This document shows, piece after piece, positions 3,901 through 62,651 of a DNA stretch of 64,000 nucleotides. Position 1 is the first letter of the stretch. Every line of letters begins with the position of its first letter. The notes under the pieces are model-generated. The model searched no databases, was not told the DNA's origin, and saw only the letters and a list, made by a program, of their open reading frames with translations. This DNA is from Candidatus Flavonifractor intestinipullorum (GTDB taxonomy: Bacteria > Bacillota > Clostridia > Oscillospirales > Oscillospiraceae), in assembly GCA_019118925.1 (NCBI GenBank), contig DWYC01000088.1, forward strand, positions 1 to 64,000, read 5' to 3'. The position numbers and the translations under genes were made by a program.

Positions 3901-5163
3901 ATGAACCACTATTACTACGACCGGCCCGATCTGGCCGCCGGAGGGAGCGCCCTTCCCCCGGGGAGGGGAAAGGGCTTCCGCCGCCGGAGAAGGGAGCGGA
4001 AGCGGCGGCCGGGGCTGGGCCGGGCGGCGGCCTGCCTGTGCGCCTTTTTGGTCCTCATGGCGGGCGGGAGCGCCGGAACGCTGGTCCTGCGGCAGCTCAC
4101 ACCCTTTGGGGCCGGAGGGGAGTGGTGGACCGCCCCGGCGGAGGGCGAGACGGTTTCCATCCTCCCCGCCCCCACCGAGACGGTGGAGCGGGCTCCGGTG
4201 GGGGACGGCACCACCCTCACCCTCCTGGCCGAGCCGGAGGGCGAGCCCCTCACCCGGCAGGCCATTTATGAAAAGTGCCTGCCCTCCATTGTCAGCATCC
4301 AGAGCGTCAGCGCCTCGGCGACCTCTCAGGGGACGGGGATCGTCATGACCGGCAACGGATACATTATCACCAACCACCACGTGATTGAAGGGGCCCAGGA
4401 GATCTCGGTGACCCAGCTCTCGGGCGGAGAGACCTATGAGGCCAAGCTGGTGGGCAGCGACGCCGCCACCGACCTGGCCGTGCTGAAAGTGGAGGCCCGG
4501 GATCTCACCGCCGCCGAGTTCGGGGATTCCGCCCTCCTCCGGGTGGGGGATCTGGCCCTGGCGCTGGGCAACCCCCTGGGCGAGCGCTTTTCGGGCACCA
4601 TGACCGACGGCATCATCTCCTTCATCGACCGCAGCGTCCTGGTGGACGGGTATGAGATGCAGCTCATCCAGACCAGCGCCGCCCTCAACTCCGGCAACTC
4701 GGGGGGCGCGCTGCTCAACGAGTACGGCCAGGTGGTGGGAGTCACTACCTTAAAAATGAGCTCCGACTGGAACACCATCGAGGCGCTGGGCTTTGCCGTC
4801 CCCACGGCCACGGTCAAGGGCGTGGTGGACCAGCTCCTCGCCGCCGGCTACGTCACCGGGCGGCCCACCATCGGGATCACCGTAACGGCGGTGAGCGATC
4901 TGCCGGACGCGCTGGCCCAGGGGCTGCCCATGGGCGTGTACGTGGCCACGGTGGACGAGAGCTCCGACGCCTGGGCCAAGGGAGTGCGGCCCGGAGATGT
5001 GATTACCGCCGCCAACGGTACGGCGGTGTACAGCACCGACGGCCTCAACGAGATCAAAAACAGCCTCTCCGTGGGGGACACGCTGGAGCTGGAGCTCTTC
5101 CGGGAGGGGGAGACCGTTACGGTCTCGGTGGAGCTGGTGGAACAGCACACCATCGGCGGCTGA
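3901..5163 (+). CDS. HtrA/DegP-like S1C trypsin-like serine protease with PDZ domain
   Basis: GTGIVMTGNGYIITNHHVIEGA, SAALNSGNSGGALLN and PDZ region; N-terminal TM segment. Confidence 0.94.
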   Translation: MNHYYYDRPDLAAGGSALPPGRGKGFRRRRRERKRRPGLGRAAACLCAFLVLMAGGSAGTLVLRQLTPFGAGGEWWTAPAEGETVSILPAPTETVERAPVGDGTTLTLLAEPEGEPLTRQAIYEKCLPSIVSIQSVSASATSQGTGIVMTGNGYIITNHHVIEGAQEISVTQLSGGETYEAKLVGSDAATDLAVLKVEARDLTAAEFGDSALLRVGDLALALGNPLGERFSGTMTDGIISFIDRSVLVDGYEMQLIQTSAALNSGNSGGALLNEYGQVVGVTTLKMSSDWNTIEALGFAVPTATVKGVVDQLLAAGYVTGRPTIGITVTAVSDLPDALAQGLPMGVYVATVDESSDAWAKGVRPGDVITAANGTAVYSTDGLNEIKNSLSVGDTLELELFREGETVTVSVELVEQHTIGG

Positions 5164-10420: not shown

Positions 10421-13400
10421 ATGTATAATTGGAAAAAGCGCCTGCTGGCGGCGGCGCTGGCCGGTTGCATGGCCATGGGGCTGATGACGCCCGCGCTGGC
10501 TGTGGAAGTGGATGCGTCCACCTCTCCCACCGAGACGGTGGAGGAGACCACCGCGCCGGTGACGGACGAGACCACGGCCCCCACCGACGAGGTGGACCCC
10601 GGCTTTAGCGTGGACCCCAGCCAGGAGCCCTCTGAGGAGCCCAGCGAGAGCGTGGAGCCCTCGGCGGAGCCTTCCGAAGAGCCCAGCGAGAGCGTGGAGC
10701 CCTCGGCGGAGCCTTCCGAGGAGCCCAGCGAGAGCGTAGAGCCCTCGGCGGAGCCTTCCGAGGAGCCCGGCGAGAGCCCGGAGCCCAGCGCCGAGCCTTC
10801 GGCCGAGCCCTCCCTGCCCCCCGAGGTGGAGATCCCCGAGGAGAGCATCCCCCTGGACCCCGGCTTTGAGGTGCCCGACTACGGCAGCATGACCACCGAG
10901 GAGCTCTATGAGGCGCTGCAGTCCTTCGGCGGCGACGCCGCCCTGGAAGAGGCGTTCTATGCCCTCCTGACCGAGGAGCAGATCGCCGCCCTGGAGGCGT
11001 ACATTCAGGAGCAGGAGGAGCAGGCCCTGGAGGCGGAGTACCCCGCCATCCCCGCCCAGTCCGCCACCGATGAGGCCAACGGCGTCACGGTGACGGTGTC
11101 GGCGCCGGCCGGCGCGTTCCCGGCGGGGACCGAGCTGACCATTGAGCTCGTTCAGACCCCCAACCCCCTGACTCGCATGTTCACCCAGGACCAGAAGGCC
11201 ATGGTGGACGAGGCTGTGGCCGAAGCCTTGGCGGAAGAGCCCGCCGAGCCGCAGCAGTCGGTGGCCTTCGACATCACCTTCCGGCTCGACGGCGCGGAGG
11301 TGCAGCCCCGGGAGGGCTACACCGTCAGCGTGACCTTCGATGTGGAGAGCGCCAGCGCCCTTCTGGACGGCGCCGACCAGCTCCAGGTGTTCCACGTGGA
11401 CGGCGACGCCGTGGCCGAGGCCGTGGGCGAGGCCGTCGCGGTGGACCCCGAGGCCGACACCCAGCAGATCGCCGTGGAGGCCGAGCAGTTCTCCATCTAT
11501 GCCCTGACTGCGGCGGTCACACCGAGAGCAAGCTATGAGGTCAATTTGGCTGATCTAAATGGCATGACGTTCCAGGTCGGCGATGTAATTGAGGTAACTG
11601 CCCAAGAAGAGAATCGATATCAGTGGAACGTCACTTCTGGTAGAGACTGCGTAACAGTTCAATCTTTGCCGGATACAAACACCGGTGGATGGTGGCCTAC
11701 CTACTATAAACATTGGCAGATCACCATGAATGAGCCGGGAAGTGTAACCGTTCAGTACGGATATACTGACTGGTGGGGGTGGCATGGTACTCAAGCCACG
11801 TTTACGATTGAGGAACCGGTCCCCGCCGGTCCTCTGACCATTGAAGATCAGATCAACCGGAACGGCAGCCTGATTCCGGTGCTGAACCGTGACGAAGCGG
11901 GCGTCCCGGCAGATGCTGAAGTCACCTACCGCTGGTACAGAGCGGAGAACAACGGCAGTGCCCCCGCATTTAAGGAGTGCGCGGAGGTGACGGGCGATGC
12001 GCTGGATACTCAGTACGCTCCTGAAAACGGCGTCAACGTAGCTGTGGACCAGGGCGGCAAGTACTGGTACTATGTGACCGCCACCTATACTACAGATGCG
12101 GGTGGTGCAGAACAGACGCTCCGCTCTGCACCCTACTGGGTGCCCTACTCCAATGAGCTGGAGAACGGTGGATTTGAGGATCCAGATACCAGTGAGTATG
12201 GCTATGGTTGGAGTGTACAGTTCAACCAGAATGAAGAGTTCCTTCTCAATCCGTCCAGTGCCGCAGATCATACCGCCCTGTGGTGGAAATCCACTGGCGA
12301 AGGATACAGCCAAACCAACGGGACCGTCCATATTGAGTATGTGGCCCCGGATAAGGGAGATCCTACGAGCGAGTTCAGCGCCAGATGGGGCGCGGGTACG
12401 CCTACAAGCCCGAACGCAACCGGCAGCGATCAGTATGCAGAGCTGAACTGCGAGGCATTTGGCGCACTCTATCAGGACGTGCTGACAGCCCCCGGTGCAG
12501 AGCTCTATTGGAGCCTGTCGCACCGCGGCCGAGAAGGCGTAGACGAAATGGCTGTGGTAATTATGCCCGCCTCTGAAGCACGGAATATTACCACACAGTC
12601 GCAGCTGGAGCAGGTACTGACTAATCCGGGAAAGTATAACGCGGCTGTGACTTATATTAAGAGCGATGCGGATGCGTGGCACTCCTACTCCAGTACGATG
12701 GACATGGCAGACAGCGAGGGGGCGTATGACCGGAACACGAATATCGCGTATAACGCCACGCCGGATATGTTCAACGCGGACGGCTCCTATAAGGGAAGCG
12801 GTGAGTATCTGACCCGGTTCTTCTTTGTCGCAGTCAACACATTCACAGGGGATCCTACGGTCGGCAACCTGATTGACGAGGTCAGCTTCTCCGACGATCT
12901 GTCCTATACCATTAACTATTATCTGGGTGATGCTTCTACTCCTGACCGGACGGAGCACGACAGTGCAGATCCCTTTACCCGGGTGACTGCGGATGTGAGT
13001 AGCTATCTGGGTGAGGGCTGGACAGTTGAGCGTACTGAGATCGACGGGGAGGATGCGAATGGCAGTTTGCAGATGCTCCTGACTGCCAGCGGGATGACAC
13101 TGAATGTGTACCTGATTCAGGGCGGCATCACGGTCGTGAAGCAAGTCGCGGGCGTGACATTGACCGGGAGCTACACGGCAAACTTTGCGCTGTACGAAGA
13201 TAATAATGGCAGCGTAGGGAGTCAGGTAGCAAAGGCAAGCGTCACCGTCAACTCGGGGACGGGCGCAGGCAGTGTAGTCTTTACGGACATGAAGGGAGAG
13301 CGGTTCATTCCCGAAATAAGTGCCACCTACTATATCTGTGAAACTTCCACATTGCCAGTGGATGGGTACAGCCTGACCTCTACGACGTATGACGGTGCGC

Positions 13401-55638: not shown

Positions 55639-56190
55639 TTATTCCTGCCCTTCCGGTCCGGCGGGCTGGGAGGGCGTCTGAACGGCCAGCAGAGCGTCGT
55701 GGCTGCGGACCAGCCACTCCTCGGTGATGCGCCAGCGGCCCTCGACCTTCTCCACCCGGCACTCGCACATGGAGAAACACTTTTTGCCGTCCTCGGCCAG
55801 AGACTTGCCGGTGGGAGGGCCGTAGGCGGTCCAGCCGGTGTTGCGCCAGGAGAAATTGGTGCACTGGCCGAAGCTGTACCCGTCCTCCTCGTTGCCCTCG
55901 GCGAAGATGTCCACAAACTCCACCGTCTGGTCGGGGAAGGAGCGGATAGTGGACAGGGTAGCCGCCACCGAGGCCTCGGCGCCCACGCTGTCCCCGTCGC
56001 AGCTGTGCACCACCGTGGAGTCGCAGTAGAACTCATAGATGGCGCCGATGCACTTGTACTGCCAGATCCACTCGGTGTAGGCCTTGAAGAGCTCGGCCAC
56101 CTCCTCGGGGAATTGCAGCTTGCACTGGCGGCAGAACTCCGCCACTTTTTTGCGGCCCTCGCTCATGTCGTGGAGCGTCATCTGAATCAT
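55639..56190 (-). CDS. SnoaL/NTF2-like protein (paralog A)
   Basis: IGAIYEFYCDSTVVHSCDGDSVG...FPDQTVEFVDIF...YGPPTGKSL...VEGRWRITEEW; ATGA overlap with upstream gene. Confidence 0.75.
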   Translation of the reverse strand: MIQMTLHDMSEGRKKVAEFCRQCKLQFPEEVAELFKAYTEWIWQYKCIGAIYEFYCDSTVVHSCDGDSVGAEASVAATLSTIRSFPDQTVEFVDIFAEGNEEDGYSFGQCTNFSWRNTGWTAYGPPTGKSLAEDGKKCFSMCECRVEKVEGRWRITEEWLVRSHDALLAVQTPSQPAGPEGQE

Positions 56191-56717
56191 GCTCTGGTTC
56201 CTCCTTCCGCGTCGCTGGTCTGGACCTGCCGCAGCAGGCTTTCCGAGTCGGAGTTGACCTCAAAGGGGATTTTCCAGGCGCCGTCCACCTGCTTGAGATA
56301 GAGCATGGACAGGTTCAGGCAGCGCTCCCCCAGAGACTTCCCGGTGGCGGGGCCGTTGGGGCTGAAGCCCAGATTGGTGCCCTTCAGGCGCATGCGGCGA
56401 AAGACCTTCCAGCAGTCGGGGGCGGCGCGGTAGACGATGATGTGGTCGATCTCGGTGTGCAGGTCAGGGAAGGCGGCCTCCAGCTCGTTGATCTGGATGG
56501 CGATCTCATCCGGATGAGAGTAGCGGATGCCGCTCTGTTTGTGGTACTCCACCTCTTCGGGGTAGAAGTCGTAGACCAGGCCTACCATCTTATAGTCGTA
56601 GATGAGCTTAGTCAGGCAGGTGATGAACTCCCGCACCTGGTCCGGGGTGTCCAGAGTGGGGGAGTAGACCACGTCGCTCATGTGCCAGATGGCGTCCATT
56701 TTTTCGTCGGATTTCAC
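56187..56717 (-). CDS. SnoaL/NTF2-like protein (paralog B)
   Basis: VGLVYDFYPEEVEYHKQSG...FPDLHTEIDHI...GPATGKSLGERCLNLSMLYLKQVDGAWKIPFE. Confidence 0.75.
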   Translation of the reverse strand: MKSDEKMDAIWHMSDVVYSPTLDTPDQVREFITCLTKLIYDYKMVGLVYDFYPEEVEYHKQSGIRYSHPDEIAIQINELEAAFPDLHTEIDHIIVYRAAPDCWKVFRRMRLKGTNLGFSPNGPATGKSLGERCLNLSMLYLKQVDGAWKIPFEVNSDSESLLRQVQTSDAEGGTRA

Positions 56718-56745: not shown

Positions 56746-56781
56746 AAAAAGCGGGCCGCATATCAAGGGATATGCGGCCCG
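56746..56781 (-). terminator. Intrinsic terminator between SSS symporter and paralog B
   Basis: Minus strand CGGGCCGCATATCCCTTGATATGCGGCCCGCTTTTTATT. Confidence 0.8.
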
Positions 56782-56801: not shown

Positions 56802-58478
56802 TTACTTCTTGGCCTTGGCGGGGCTCATGTTCTCACGGATCCAGGCGGAGACGCGGCCGCGGACAAAGAAGTCCTCGAACACGCCCTGCTGGGCGGTATG
56901 CTCCGCATACCACTTCTTCTCGGTGAGGAGGGAGACCACGACCACGGTGATGATGCCGCAGAAGATGGCGGGGAAGCCCAGGAAGAAGCCGCCCCAGACA
57001 TAGCGCACGCCGGCGGCGTACAGGCCCAGGTACACGGCCTCGCCCACGAGCATGCTGGCGACAGCGCCCTGGGGAGTGGCCTTCTTCCAGAACAGGCCGG
57101 CCACGATGGTGGGAGTAACCAGCACCATGCCGTTGGTGGCCATATCGGTCAGGAGGGTCAGCAGAGGCAGCTCGGTGGTGGCGAAGCAGAAGCCGATGAT
57201 GCCCAGGATGACCACGATGACACGGGTACGGAACACTTCCTGCTTGGCGTGAGCCTCAACGCGGTTGTCGATGGTGTCCAGGCTGGCGCCGCCGTCGGCG
57301 CCGATGGTGGGCTCACCCTTCTTCAGGCGCAGCATGTTGGTGAGCAGGTCGTTGGACACCAGGCCGGACAGGGAGATCAGCGTGGAGTCCAGGGTGCCCA
57401 GAGCGGCAGCCAGGATGAAGGTGCAGACGATGCCCAGCATGATGGGGCTGCCCGCCATGGAGCACAGCTCCAGAATACCGGCCTCGGGGTTGGAGACGGT
57501 CACGCCCTTGGCCACGGCGCCCAGAACGACGACGCCGAAAAGGCCGTAGATGCTCAGCCAGATGCCGGAGGCGGCGGTGGCGATGGAGGACTTCTTAACC
57601 TCGCGCACGTTCTTGGCCAGGCAGATGCTCATGAAGTTGGAGGGGTAGACCAGCATAACCAGGGTGCCCAGAATGACGTTGGAGACCCAGTAGGGAATGT
57701 TGAAGTCGCCCACGTTCTCCAGGACGTAAATCTGCTCCTGGGTCTGACCGGCATACAGAGTCTGAGCGGCCTGATCGGCGGAGTGGAACATATCGCCGAC
57801 ACTGCCGTCGAAGTAGTAGCCGACCAGATAGCCCAGCACCACCAGGGAGCCGCCCAGCATAACGATAGCCGAGAAGCTGTCCACCATGGACACCGAGTGC
57901 ACGCCGCCGGTGGCCACATAGATGATGATGATGGTGAAGGCGATGGCGGAGCCCACGATGACGGGCATGGTGTCGCCGGAGGCCAGGTTCATGGCGATAC
58001 CCAGAGTACGGATCTCGGTGATGAGCCAGATGATGTTGAAGCAGACAATGATCAGAGACACAAAGAACTTCACCCAGCGGCTCTGATACCGCAGCTCCAT
58101 GATGTCGGGCAGGGTGGAGAGGCGGTACTTCTTGGCCAGGGGCCAGATCTTCTCGCTCAGGAAGAACATCACCATACCGGTGGCGGCACAGGTGACCACC
58201 GAGTTCAGGCCGGCCACGCCGTAGTTGTAGAAGAAGCCGACGCGTCCGGTGAAGGTGGTGCCGGAGTAGAACGTAACACAAGTAATCAGGAAGACCACCA
58301 CGGCGTTGCGGGACTTGCCGCCGGTGAGGTAATCCTCAAAGGTCTGGTTTTTCTTACGCTCGATTGCCTTTTTGGAGAAGCCCTGATACCAGGCCATCCA
58401 GATGACAACGGCGATATAGGCCAGCATGATAATAAACGGAATTGGGCTTTGAATCAGTTCAGCCTGCATTGCATTCAT
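56802..58478 (-). CDS. Sodium:solute symporter (SSS) family transporter
   Basis: Multi-TM; FYSGTTFTGRVGFFYNYG, ATGGVHSVSMVDSFSAIVMLGGSLVVLGYLVG, AAALGTLDSTLISLSGLVSNDLL. Confidence 0.92.
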   Translation of the reverse strand: MNAMQAELIQSPIPFIIMLAYIAVVIWMAWYQGFSKKAIERKKNQTFEDYLTGGKSRNAVVVFLITCVTFYSGTTFTGRVGFFYNYGVAGLNSVVTCAATGMVMFFLSEKIWPLAKKYRLSTLPDIMELRYQSRWVKFFVSLIIVCFNIIWLITEIRTLGIAMNLASGDTMPVIVGSAIAFTIIIIYVATGGVHSVSMVDSFSAIVMLGGSLVVLGYLVGYYFDGSVGDMFHSADQAAQTLYAGQTQEQIYVLENVGDFNIPYWVSNVILGTLVMLVYPSNFMSICLAKNVREVKKSSIATAASGIWLSIYGLFGVVVLGAVAKGVTVSNPEAGILELCSMAGSPIMLGIVCTFILAAALGTLDSTLISLSGLVSNDLLTNMLRLKKGEPTIGADGGASLDTIDNRVEAHAKQEVFRTRVIVVILGIIGFCFATTELPLLTLLTDMATNGMVLVTPTIVAGLFWKKATPQGAVASMLVGEAVYLGLYAAGVRYVWGGFFLGFPAIFCGIITVVVVSLLTEKKWYAEHTAQQGVFEDFFVRGRVSAWIRENMSPAKAKK

Positions 58479-58766: not shown

Positions 58767-59312
58767 TCACTCCAGGAGACGGCGGTAGGCATCGTTGCTG
58801 CGGATGCTCGCCTCCTTCCCCACGCGCCACTTGCCGTCGATGAACTGAATCCAGCACTCGCACATCTCCAAATCCTCATAGGGCTCGAAGCTCAGGTCTT
58901 TGCCGGCGCCGTGGGGGCCTACGCCGCCCTTGCCGCAGCCGGTGTTGTAAACGACCTGGCCGAACCGGTAATTGTCGCCGTCCCGGACACAGTGAATGTC
59001 CACAAACTCCACATTCAGGTCGGGGAACTGGGCCAGGGAGCGCAGGGTGTCCCAGACCACGTGATCGGAGCCCTCCAGATTGGCGCCGCCGTCCCGCTCT
59101 TCCTTCAGACCGTCGAAGTAGAAGTCGTAGACACGGCCCACCTGCTTGTGCTTCCAGATCAGCATGGTGTAGGCCTCGAACAGGTCGGCGATCTCCTGGG
59201 GCTCTTTATAGGTGCAGTTGCGGATGACATCCTCGTAGAGGGCGCGCTCGGCCATGATCTCATCTACGGTCATCTCCGTGATTTTCTTATTCTCGGTGAT
59301 ATTGGGCAGCAT
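58767..59312 (-). CDS. SnoaL/NTF2-like protein (paralog C)
   Basis: VGRVYDFYFDGLKEERDGGANLEG...FPDLNVEFVDIHCVRDGDNY...HGAGKDLSFEPYEDLEMCECWIQFIDGKWRV. Confidence 0.75.
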   Translation of the reverse strand: MLPNITENKKITEMTVDEIMAERALYEDVIRNCTYKEPQEIADLFEAYTMLIWKHKQVGRVYDFYFDGLKEERDGGANLEGSDHVVWDTLRSLAQFPDLNVEFVDIHCVRDGDNYRFGQVVYNTGCGKGGVGPHGAGKDLSFEPYEDLEMCECWIQFIDGKWRVGKEASIRSNDAYRRLLE

Positions 59313-59361: not shown

Positions 59362-59880
59362 TTACTCCTGCTCGGGCTTGCAGGCGGCCTTGATGCACTC
59401 CATGCTGTACATGGTGAACTCCCGCACGATGCGCCAGGTGCCGTTGATCTTGCGCACGGTGGCCATGCTCATGGTGATGCACTCCTCGGGCTTGAGCGCG
59501 CGCATGGTGGCGGGGCCGTAAATGCTCTGATTGCGGTTCGTGCCCTCCATGGTGTAGTACTGCCACACCTTGTACTCGTCGCCCTTCTTCACGGCGAAGT
59601 AGTCCCGCATGTGGATCTTCAGATCGGGGAACGCGGCGGTGAACTTCAGGGCCTCCTGCATGATGGCGTGGGCCCCCTCGTAGGCGTCGCCGTTTTCCCG
59701 GCGGAGCACTGCGTCGTCGGCGTAGATATCGTAAACGCTGCCGATCCACTTGTGGTTGTAGATCAGCTCTTTGTAAAGGCGGAAGTACTCCGCGATGGAC
59801 GCCTCGTCGGTCAGCTCCATGGACTTGACCTTCTCGTTCACTTCCATCATCTCGTTGTAAAGCCGGTCTGCCTTATACAT
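59362..59880 (-). CDS. SnoaL/NTF2-like protein (paralog D)
   Basis: IGSVYDIYADDAVLRRENGDAYEG...FPDLKIHMRDYFAVKKGDEY...YGPATMRALKPEECITMSMATVRKINGTWRI. Confidence 0.75.
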   Translation of the reverse strand: MYKADRLYNEMMEVNEKVKSMELTDEASIAEYFRLYKELIYNHKWIGSVYDIYADDAVLRRENGDAYEGAHAIMQEALKFTAAFPDLKIHMRDYFAVKKGDEYKVWQYYTMEGTNRNQSIYGPATMRALKPEECITMSMATVRKINGTWRIVREFTMYSMECIKAACKPEQE

Positions 59881-61044: not shown

Positions 61045-61122
61045 GAATCTCAGCGCTCCTTAACCAAAATGGCCGCGTCAGCCGCAAGCCATCCTGCGGA
61101 CGCGTCGTGTGTCTAATTATTT

Positions 61123-61140
61123 CTGCAACTCTCATGCCAA
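61123..61140 (-). promoter_or_regulatory. Sigma-54 (-24/-12) promoter upstream of the EutH-like gene
   Basis: Minus strand TTGGCATGAGAGTTGCAG; fits TGGCAYG-N4-TTGCW with GG-10 bp-GC spacing. Confidence 0.8.
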
Positions 61141-61160
61141 AACAATTACAAATCGGGAAC

Positions 61161-61200
61161 GTTTGAAGAATAAAGACAACATTTGAAGAATAAAGACAAA
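61161..61200. repeat. 20-bp tandem direct repeat upstream of the -24/-12 promoter
   Basis: GTTTGAAGAATAAAGACAAC / ATTTGAAGAATAAAGACAAA, back to back. Confidence 0.9.
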
Positions 61201-61559
61201 AATAATACAAAAAAAGCAGGAAAATTTTCAATGAGATCGGCAATATGAAAAATAGAAATCACTTTTTCTCCGCCGCTTGCAGCGGGAATTTTTCGCGGCG
61301 GGCAGCGTCAATTTTGTTGCGTATGAGCATCGGTTGTTGTCCTGATGCAACGATCCGGGGGCAAACGGCGCAGAAAAGACAGGTACTATCATACATAATT
61401 TCGGAACAAATGTAAAATTAAAAAACTGGAAAGTCCGAAGAAAATGAAAATTTTTTCAAAAAGCGGCCGATTTTATGGAAAAAATGGACAAGACAAACCG
61501 GTTCTGATACAATAGAAACCAAAGAGACCGTACATTCGAAACGAGGAAGGTGAGGGGTT

Positions 61560-62615
61560 ATGGCAGAAAGAGGGCACCGGAACAGCGGCGTGACAGCCAC
61601 CGACGTGGCCCGGCGAGCGGGCGTGTCTCAATCGACCGTCTCCCGGGTGTTGAATCCAAATGGAAAGGTAAAGGTCCAGGAAGAGGCCCGGCAGCGGGTG
61701 CTCCAGGCGGCCCGGGAGCTGGGATACCGCCCCAACGCCATCGCGCAGACGATGATCTCCGGCCGTTCCAAAATTGTGGGGGTGGTGGTGTCCGACTACT
61801 TCAACGTCTTTTACTACCAGATGCTCCAGCTGCTGACCAACCGTCTGATGGCTGCGGGACTCCAGGCCATGGTGTTCTCCTCGCCGCCCCGGTCGGACAT
61901 CAACGAGCTGCTCCAGCGCTTCTACCGCTATCAGGTGGACGGGGTGATTGTGACCTCCTCGGCGCTCTCCCACCATGTGACCGAACAGGGCATCCAGAGG
62001 GGGGTGCCGGTGGTGCTCATCAATGGATATTTGCCGGATATGGGGGTCAACGCTGTGCAGAGCGACCAGTTCGGCAGCGGTATCCTTATGGCGGACTACC
62101 TGGTGGGGGTAGGACACCGGCGCTTCGCCTATGTGAGCTCCGAGAACAGCCCCCACCGCAACTACATGCCCCGGCAGGAGGGCTTCCTGGAGGGCCTGCG
62201 CCGCCACGGCGTGGATACCTGCCGGGTGATTCCCGGGGGATACAGCTACCAAAGCGGCCTGGAGGTGGGGGAGAGCCTGGCCCGGGAGGCGGACATGCCC
62301 GACGCCATTTTCTGCTCCGGCGACTGGAACGCCATGGGCGTTCTGGACGCCCTGCGGCGGCACTCCCGGCGGGAGATCGGACGGGAGGTCTCGGTCACCG
62401 GCTATGACACCCCGATCCTCACGGGGCTGGAGGCCTATTCCATCACCGGCCTGACCCAGGACATGGACGGCCTGTGCAGCGACGCGGTAGAGCTGCTGGA
62501 AACGCTGATGGAGGACCCGGAGAGACCGCCGCAGCTTCTGACCCGGCCCATGCATTTGACGATTCGTTCTTCGTCCCGCCCGCTTCCCCGGGAAATGGAG
62601 CAGAAAAAGGGCTGA
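61560..62615 (+). CDS. LacI-family transcriptional regulator
   Basis: VTATDVARRAGVSQSTVSRVLNPNGKV HTH; GYRPNAIAQTMISGRSKIVGVV; periplasmic-binding-type sensor. Confidence 0.93.
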   Translation: MAERGHRNSGVTATDVARRAGVSQSTVSRVLNPNGKVKVQEEARQRVLQAARELGYRPNAIAQTMISGRSKIVGVVVSDYFNVFYYQMLQLLTNRLMAAGLQAMVFSSPPRSDINELLQRFYRYQVDGVIVTSSALSHHVTEQGIQRGVPVVLINGYLPDMGVNAVQSDQFGSGILMADYLVGVGHRRFAYVSSENSPHRNYMPRQEGFLEGLRRHGVDTCRVIPGGYSYQSGLEVGESLAREADMPDAIFCSGDWNAMGVLDALRRHSRREIGREVSVTGYDTPILTGLEAYSITGLTQDMDGLCSDAVELLETLMEDPERPPQLLTRPMHLTIRSSSRPLPREMEQKKG

Positions 62616-62622
62616 TTTGCTC

Positions 62623-62651
62623 TTGACAGTGGGCAGGAAAGGGCGTATGAT
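62623..62651 (+). promoter_or_regulatory. Sigma-70-type promoter of the twin SnoaL/NTF2 gene
   Basis: TTGACA (62623-62628)-17 bp-TATGAT (62646-62651). Confidence 0.75.

Follow-up and report, generated by a model that had tools for sequence, protein, structure and literature searches.

A predicted sigma-54 promoter before a EutH-SnoaL-symporter operon and its likely trans-encoded activator

Introduction

In the Clostridiales, the upstream activating sites (UAS) of sigma-54 enhancer-binding proteins (EBPs) usually lie at a distance of 100-250 bp, and 38 EBPs of this order were found unclustered with their targets (Nie et al. 2019, PMC6615313). There is also a precedent for a LacI-family protein controlling a sigma-54 promoter, namely CcpA at the cel promoter of B. 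thuringiensis (PMC10864463). No mention of ethanolamine, SnoaL, creatinin- or aldolase was found in the text of PMC6615313, and a literature search on EutH/SnoaL returned nothing relevant. The locus described here lies in a 64,000-nucleotide stretch of Candidatus Flavonifractor intestinipullorum (the window, i.e. the whole stretch of DNA analysed). A sequence-only reading of the window had reported a sigma-54 promoter with no sigma-54 activator encoded in the window; we found no EBP gene on the entire contig.

Results

The promoter and its operon

The promoter faces a set of genes on the minus strand and is flanked by a divergent regulator:

61124-61139, minus strand: predicted sigma-54 (-24/-12) promoter TGGCATGAGAGTTGCA; perfect consensus, promoter position, rpoN in the genome
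59935-61044, minus strand: EutH-family transporter, heading the operon (PF04346, E 5e-119)
59362-59880, minus strand: SnoaL-like protein (PF07366; 87% identity to the Butyricicoccus pullicaecorum copy)
58767-59312, minus strand: SnoaL-like protein, identified by similarity, without a Pfam match of its own
56802-58478, minus strand: sodium:solute symporter (PF00474), with which the core operon probably ends
56752-56781, minus strand: terminator-like hairpin downstream of the symporter gene, with a 13-bp stem followed by a T-run
55639-56717, minus strand: two more SnoaL-like genes past the terminator, reached by read-through or forming a separate unit
61560-62615, plus strand: divergent LacI-family regulator (PF00356, PF13377)

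Described earlier as near-perfect, TGGCATGAGAGTTGCA is in fact a perfect match, with the GG-N10-GC core set in TGGCAYG-N4-TTGCW; the window has no second perfect match, and the genome as a whole just one more. Transcription is predicted to start near 61113, and the EutH start lies 80 bp downstream of the site; placement and orientation agree with the proposal that it drives the EutH/SnoaL/SSS operon. The consensus match alone is weak evidence, because about one perfect match per ~2.2 Mb genome is expected by chance and control patterns are at least as common: the whole genome contains 16 matches with ≤ 1 mismatch versus 21 for the reversed-pattern controls (no enrichment). We take the promoter as real because of its placement. 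Among the 16 matches, six occupy a promoter position: the window site and five others, all of which adjoin EBP genes. On these sequence grounds, we regard 61124-61139 as a genuine sigma-54 promoter of the EutH-SnoaL-SnoaL-symporter operon.

The genome (2.25 Mb, 94 contigs, 81% complete) contains a single rpoN gene (C17:4795-5271; PF04552, E 2.4e-57), on which the earlier proposal depended, and the AAA+ activator expected elsewhere in the genome has four candidates, i.e. four strong EBPs (PF00158), all off this contig. The divergent LacI regulator noted before is borne out by its Pfam matches. No leader hairpin was found in a search for one (z = -0.9), and other EutH homologs had no upstream sigma-54 site with 0-1 mismatch. 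At 62623-62651 (plus strand), TTGACA-N17-TATGAT lies upstream of a tandem-SnoaL gene, which therefore probably has its own sigma-70 promoter.

Candidate activator sites and the choice of EBP

Upstream of the promoter, two inverted repeats resemble GTTGC-N6-GCAAC:

61316-61331, minus strand: candidate EBP site UAS2, GATGC-TCATAC-GCAAC; 1 mismatch to GTTGC-N6-GCAAC, 176 bp upstream of -24
61336-61351, minus strand: candidate EBP site UAS1, GTTGC-ATCAGG-ACAAC; 1 mismatch to GTTGC-N6-GCAAC, 196 bp upstream of -24

The two are 20 bp apart and are the sole sites within one mismatch of the motif in the 64-kb window. Their distances of 176 and 196 bp agree with the Clostridiales range (PMC6615313). 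Perfect copies of GTTGC-N6-GCAAC occur in the flanking promoters of the EBP at C94:30611-31987 and of its B. pullicaecorum ortholog (GTTGCGAAAGCGCAAC, GTTGCATGATTGCAAC), and the promoters of the genome's other EBPs contain no such site with ≤ 2 mismatches. The window promoter thus carries candidate UAS for the C94:30611 EBP regulon, as two one-mismatch sites at the usual distance, of a motif chosen partly post hoc. Of the 22 sigma-54 promoters that adjoin EBPs of the C94:30611 kind, 11 contained the broader pattern TGC-N5-YGCA (1.2 expected from shuffles); of the 31 that adjoin EBPs of other kinds, 2 contained it (expectation 2.4). For the window taken alone, the same test gave P = 0.07. When the 260-bp upstream region was shuffled, 0.9% of the shuffles had at least one site within one mismatch of GTTGC-N6-GCAAC and 0 of 20,000 had two, probabilities that are optimistic because the motif was sought and refined with the window sequence already known.

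The EBP at C94:30611 adjoins an HpcH-aldolase/IolB-like/alcohol dehydrogenase/creatininase-family operon, in which the aldolase, IolB-like, dehydrogenase and creatininase genes come after the EBP's sigma-54 site at C94:30382. The recognition helix STIVRK occurs in this protein and in both of its orthologs; two other EBPs of the genome have a different helix. Collectively, the shared motifs point to this trans-encoded PAS-AAA+-HTH EBP as the likely activator of the window promoter, and it most probably acts through 61316-61331 and 61336-61351.

The other three EBPs have flanks of a different kind. The EBP at C94:11640 has three copies of the candidate UAS TATTC-N6-GAATA, and L123 and L124 contain similar sites; the C10 EBP is accompanied by a block, ATCGTGGTTAC...GATAATCACGAT, conserved between the window's genome and G203; and GACCAATT repeats lie upstream of both sigma-54 sites flanking the C15 EBP. 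The latter gene (L030) has a sigma-54 site on each flank, facing what we take to be cysteine-desulfidase-like and PatB/MalY-like genes. At C10:34000-38700 (L031), a presumed GrdX/GrdE/GrdB-like reductase operon adjoins a sensorless EBP; the reading frame of the GrdB-like gene is interrupted, perhaps by a selenocysteine TGA.

A real sigma-54 promoter served by another activator, be it one of these three or an EBP missing from the assembly, seems unlikely, though it deserves weighing. With the assembly 81% complete, a fifth, unseen EBP is possible, and the candidate UAS are assigned to the C94:30611 EBP by motif only, and imperfectly. Against this, the flanks of the other three EBPs (TATTC-N6-GAATA; ATCGTGGTTAC...; GACCAATT) find no clear counterpart before the window promoter, and B. 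pullicaecorum has the operon together with just one strong EBP.

Other genomes carrying the operon

Besides the window's genome, only two carriers of the SnoaL/symporter/EutH set were found, B. pullicaecorum and G813, which limits the comparison of EBP and operon to two independent cases; both possess an ortholog of the C94:30611 EBP. Butyricicoccus pullicaecorum DSM 23266 (L035, G310) carries the operon at 86-87% identity (EutH 86%, SnoaL 87%), with the same gene order and a divergent LacI gene. Unlike the window, it has no sigma-54 site before EutH, and its LacI is just 31% identical. A sigma-70-like promoter precedes its EutH copy instead; control of the operon by sigma-54 is thus not conserved in this species. 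In the same locus, the interval from the LacI gene to the tandem-SnoaL gene contains a perfect GTTGC-N6-GCAAC (L159:8336), ~200 bp downstream of a one-mismatch sigma-54 site (L035:3427). Across its length, the only strong EBP of this species shares 67% identity with C94:30611-31987, and its aldolase/IolB-like/dehydrogenase/creatininase genes come after a sigma-54 site at L160:5292. In the surrounding region (C21, L160:2833-5306), a dehydrogenase gene comes after an rpoN-like gene, and the sigma-54-like site TGGCACGAAAAATGCT occurs at 4173 and 5292.

In G813, from another family of the class, the SnoaL genes lie within a 15-kb block that encodes creatininase-family, alcohol dehydrogenase, HpcH aldolase, URO-D, SnoaL, symporter, SnoaL and EutH proteins and carries three perfect sigma-54 sites. 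Among 391 genomes sampled from the class, its EBP (C31:505-1851, 54% identity) was the best match outside the window's genome. Since the EBP, the aldolase/creatininase genes and the operon recur together, the EBP appears to travel with a pathway that includes the window operon; the two operons unlinked here adjoin each other in another species.

The B. pullicaecorum promoter bears on a further alternative, in which the sigma-54 match is fortuitous and the operon is transcribed from a LacI-regulated sigma-70 promoter, TTGAAA-N18-TATTAT at 61231-61202. This we judge very improbable. The ortholog does have a sigma-70-like promoter, a weak site of that type exists here, and ~1 perfect sigma-54 match per genome is expected by chance; however, sigma-70-like matches of such quality arise by chance in AT-rich DNA (3 found versus 0.9 expected, both strands), and the perfect sigma-54 match is well placed and oriented, with EBP-type candidate sites upstream. 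If the sigma-54 promoter is used as we propose, near-identical operon genes would have undergone a promoter swap, standing under sigma-54 here and under a sigma-70-like promoter in B. pullicaecorum.

Tandem repeat and dyad upstream of the promoter

Two further elements lie between the promoter and the candidate UAS:

61161-61200, minus strand: tandem duplication of the 20-bp unit TTTGTCTTTATTCTTCAAAT (period 20 bp, 95% match, score 77)
61248-61267, minus strand: 20-bp partial dyad AAAAAGTGATTTCTATTTTT, AAAAA-N2-GA-N2-TC-N2-TTTTT, candidate LacI-family operator

The tandem repeat is directly upstream of the promoter, 21-60 bp from -24. The sequence-only reading had described two back-to-back 20-bp copies: the repeat is real and unique, though in the register given there the second copy matches at 18/20 positions, the first and last base differing. 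An 18-bp core, TTGTCTTTATTCTTCAAA, is found at 61162-61179 and 61182-61199, with no further copy anywhere in the genome at ≤ 3 mismatches, and so the repeat does not recur at other targets of a common regulator in the whole genome, be it as a UAS or as a LacI operator. Nor does the unit resemble any sequence upstream of the genome's four EBPs. It was ruled out as a site of the EBP at C94:11640, whose candidate UAS is TATTC-N6-GAATA, and of the C10 EBP, as it has no match to that protein's conserved block. Intrinsically bent DNA was likewise rejected: the predicted bend exceeded the shuffle mean, but with P = 0.09 (wedge model). Elsewhere in the window, GC-rich DNA at 10624-10800 contains a 42-bp tandem repeat of ~4 copies.

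The dyad AAAAAGTGATTTCTATTTTT has a single other copy in the whole genome (≤ 3 mismatches allowed), which is identical; it lies at C94:16751-16770, with another LacI gene on one side and a SnoaL operon on the other. That region (C94:14500-24500, L126) is a LacI-SnoaL-SnoaL-LacI cluster, and the genes adjoining it presumably encode relatives of 3-hydroxybutyryl-CoA dehydrogenase, CoA-transferase and 4-hydroxybutyryl-CoA dehydratase. The second LacI encoded in the cluster shares 52% identity with the LacI of the window. Judged by this recurrence, 61248-61267 is the likelier LacI operator, in preference to the tandem repeat for which that role had been suggested. A distinctly doubtful reading is that the repeat, close to the promoter, is bound by a third regulator that belongs to neither the LacI nor the EBP class; were it true, a single sigma-54 promoter would integrate three inputs within a 200-bp loop.

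The earlier proposal that the repeat itself is an unusually close activator-binding region can hardly be credited: the duplication has two-turn spacing directly upstream of the promoter, each unit has TTG-N11-CAA ends and a third TTG-N11-CAA occurs further up, but the repeat lies closer to -24 than the 100-250 bp of the Clostridiales (PMC6615313), is unique in the genome, matches no known EBP site there, and the third TTG-N11-CAA overlaps UAS1, which with UAS2 makes the better candidate.

Discussion

In the model we propose, the C94:30611 EBP would occupy the two sites at 61316-61331 and 61336-61351, which are 20 bp apart; through DNA looping it would then reach the sigma-54 closed complex at 61124-61139 and remodel it. 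The same protein probably also controls the adjoining HpcH-aldolase/IolB-like/alcohol dehydrogenase/creatininase-family operon, which suggests that both operons form one catabolic regulon. The divergent LacI is probably a second layer, acting via the dyad at 61248-61267; the dyad is inside the loop that activation would need, so LacI could block the EBP there. The tandem repeat would also be positioned within this loop, adjoining the promoter. The promoter match and its placement, rpoN, the gene orthology and the shared motifs are read from the DNA itself; from these we infer EBP binding, activation, LacI action and an inducer. An orphan promoter would thereby become a testable regulon, in which a single PAS-type EBP would serve two unlinked operons through the proposed motif.

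This scheme resembles the Clostridiales sigma-54/EBP regulons (Nie et al. 2019, PMC6615313) in its -24/-12 promoter and an EBP with a Fis-type HTH, in having several inverted-repeat UAS 100-250 bp upstream, and in the action of some EBPs on unlinked operons. It differs in the motif, as many of those described are TGT-N10-12-ACA and that found here is TGC-N6-GCA. With the B. thuringiensis cel operon (PMC10864463) it would share the binding of a LacI-family protein, there CcpA, to the upstream region of a multi-UAS sigma-54 promoter. In contrast, CelR is a PRD-type EBP and CcpA a global regulator, whereas the EBP here is of the PAS type and the LacI protein local and divergent. The arrangement is thus a standard one of sigma-54 promoter, remote UAS and trans-encoded EBP, new in its members and its motif and not in kind.
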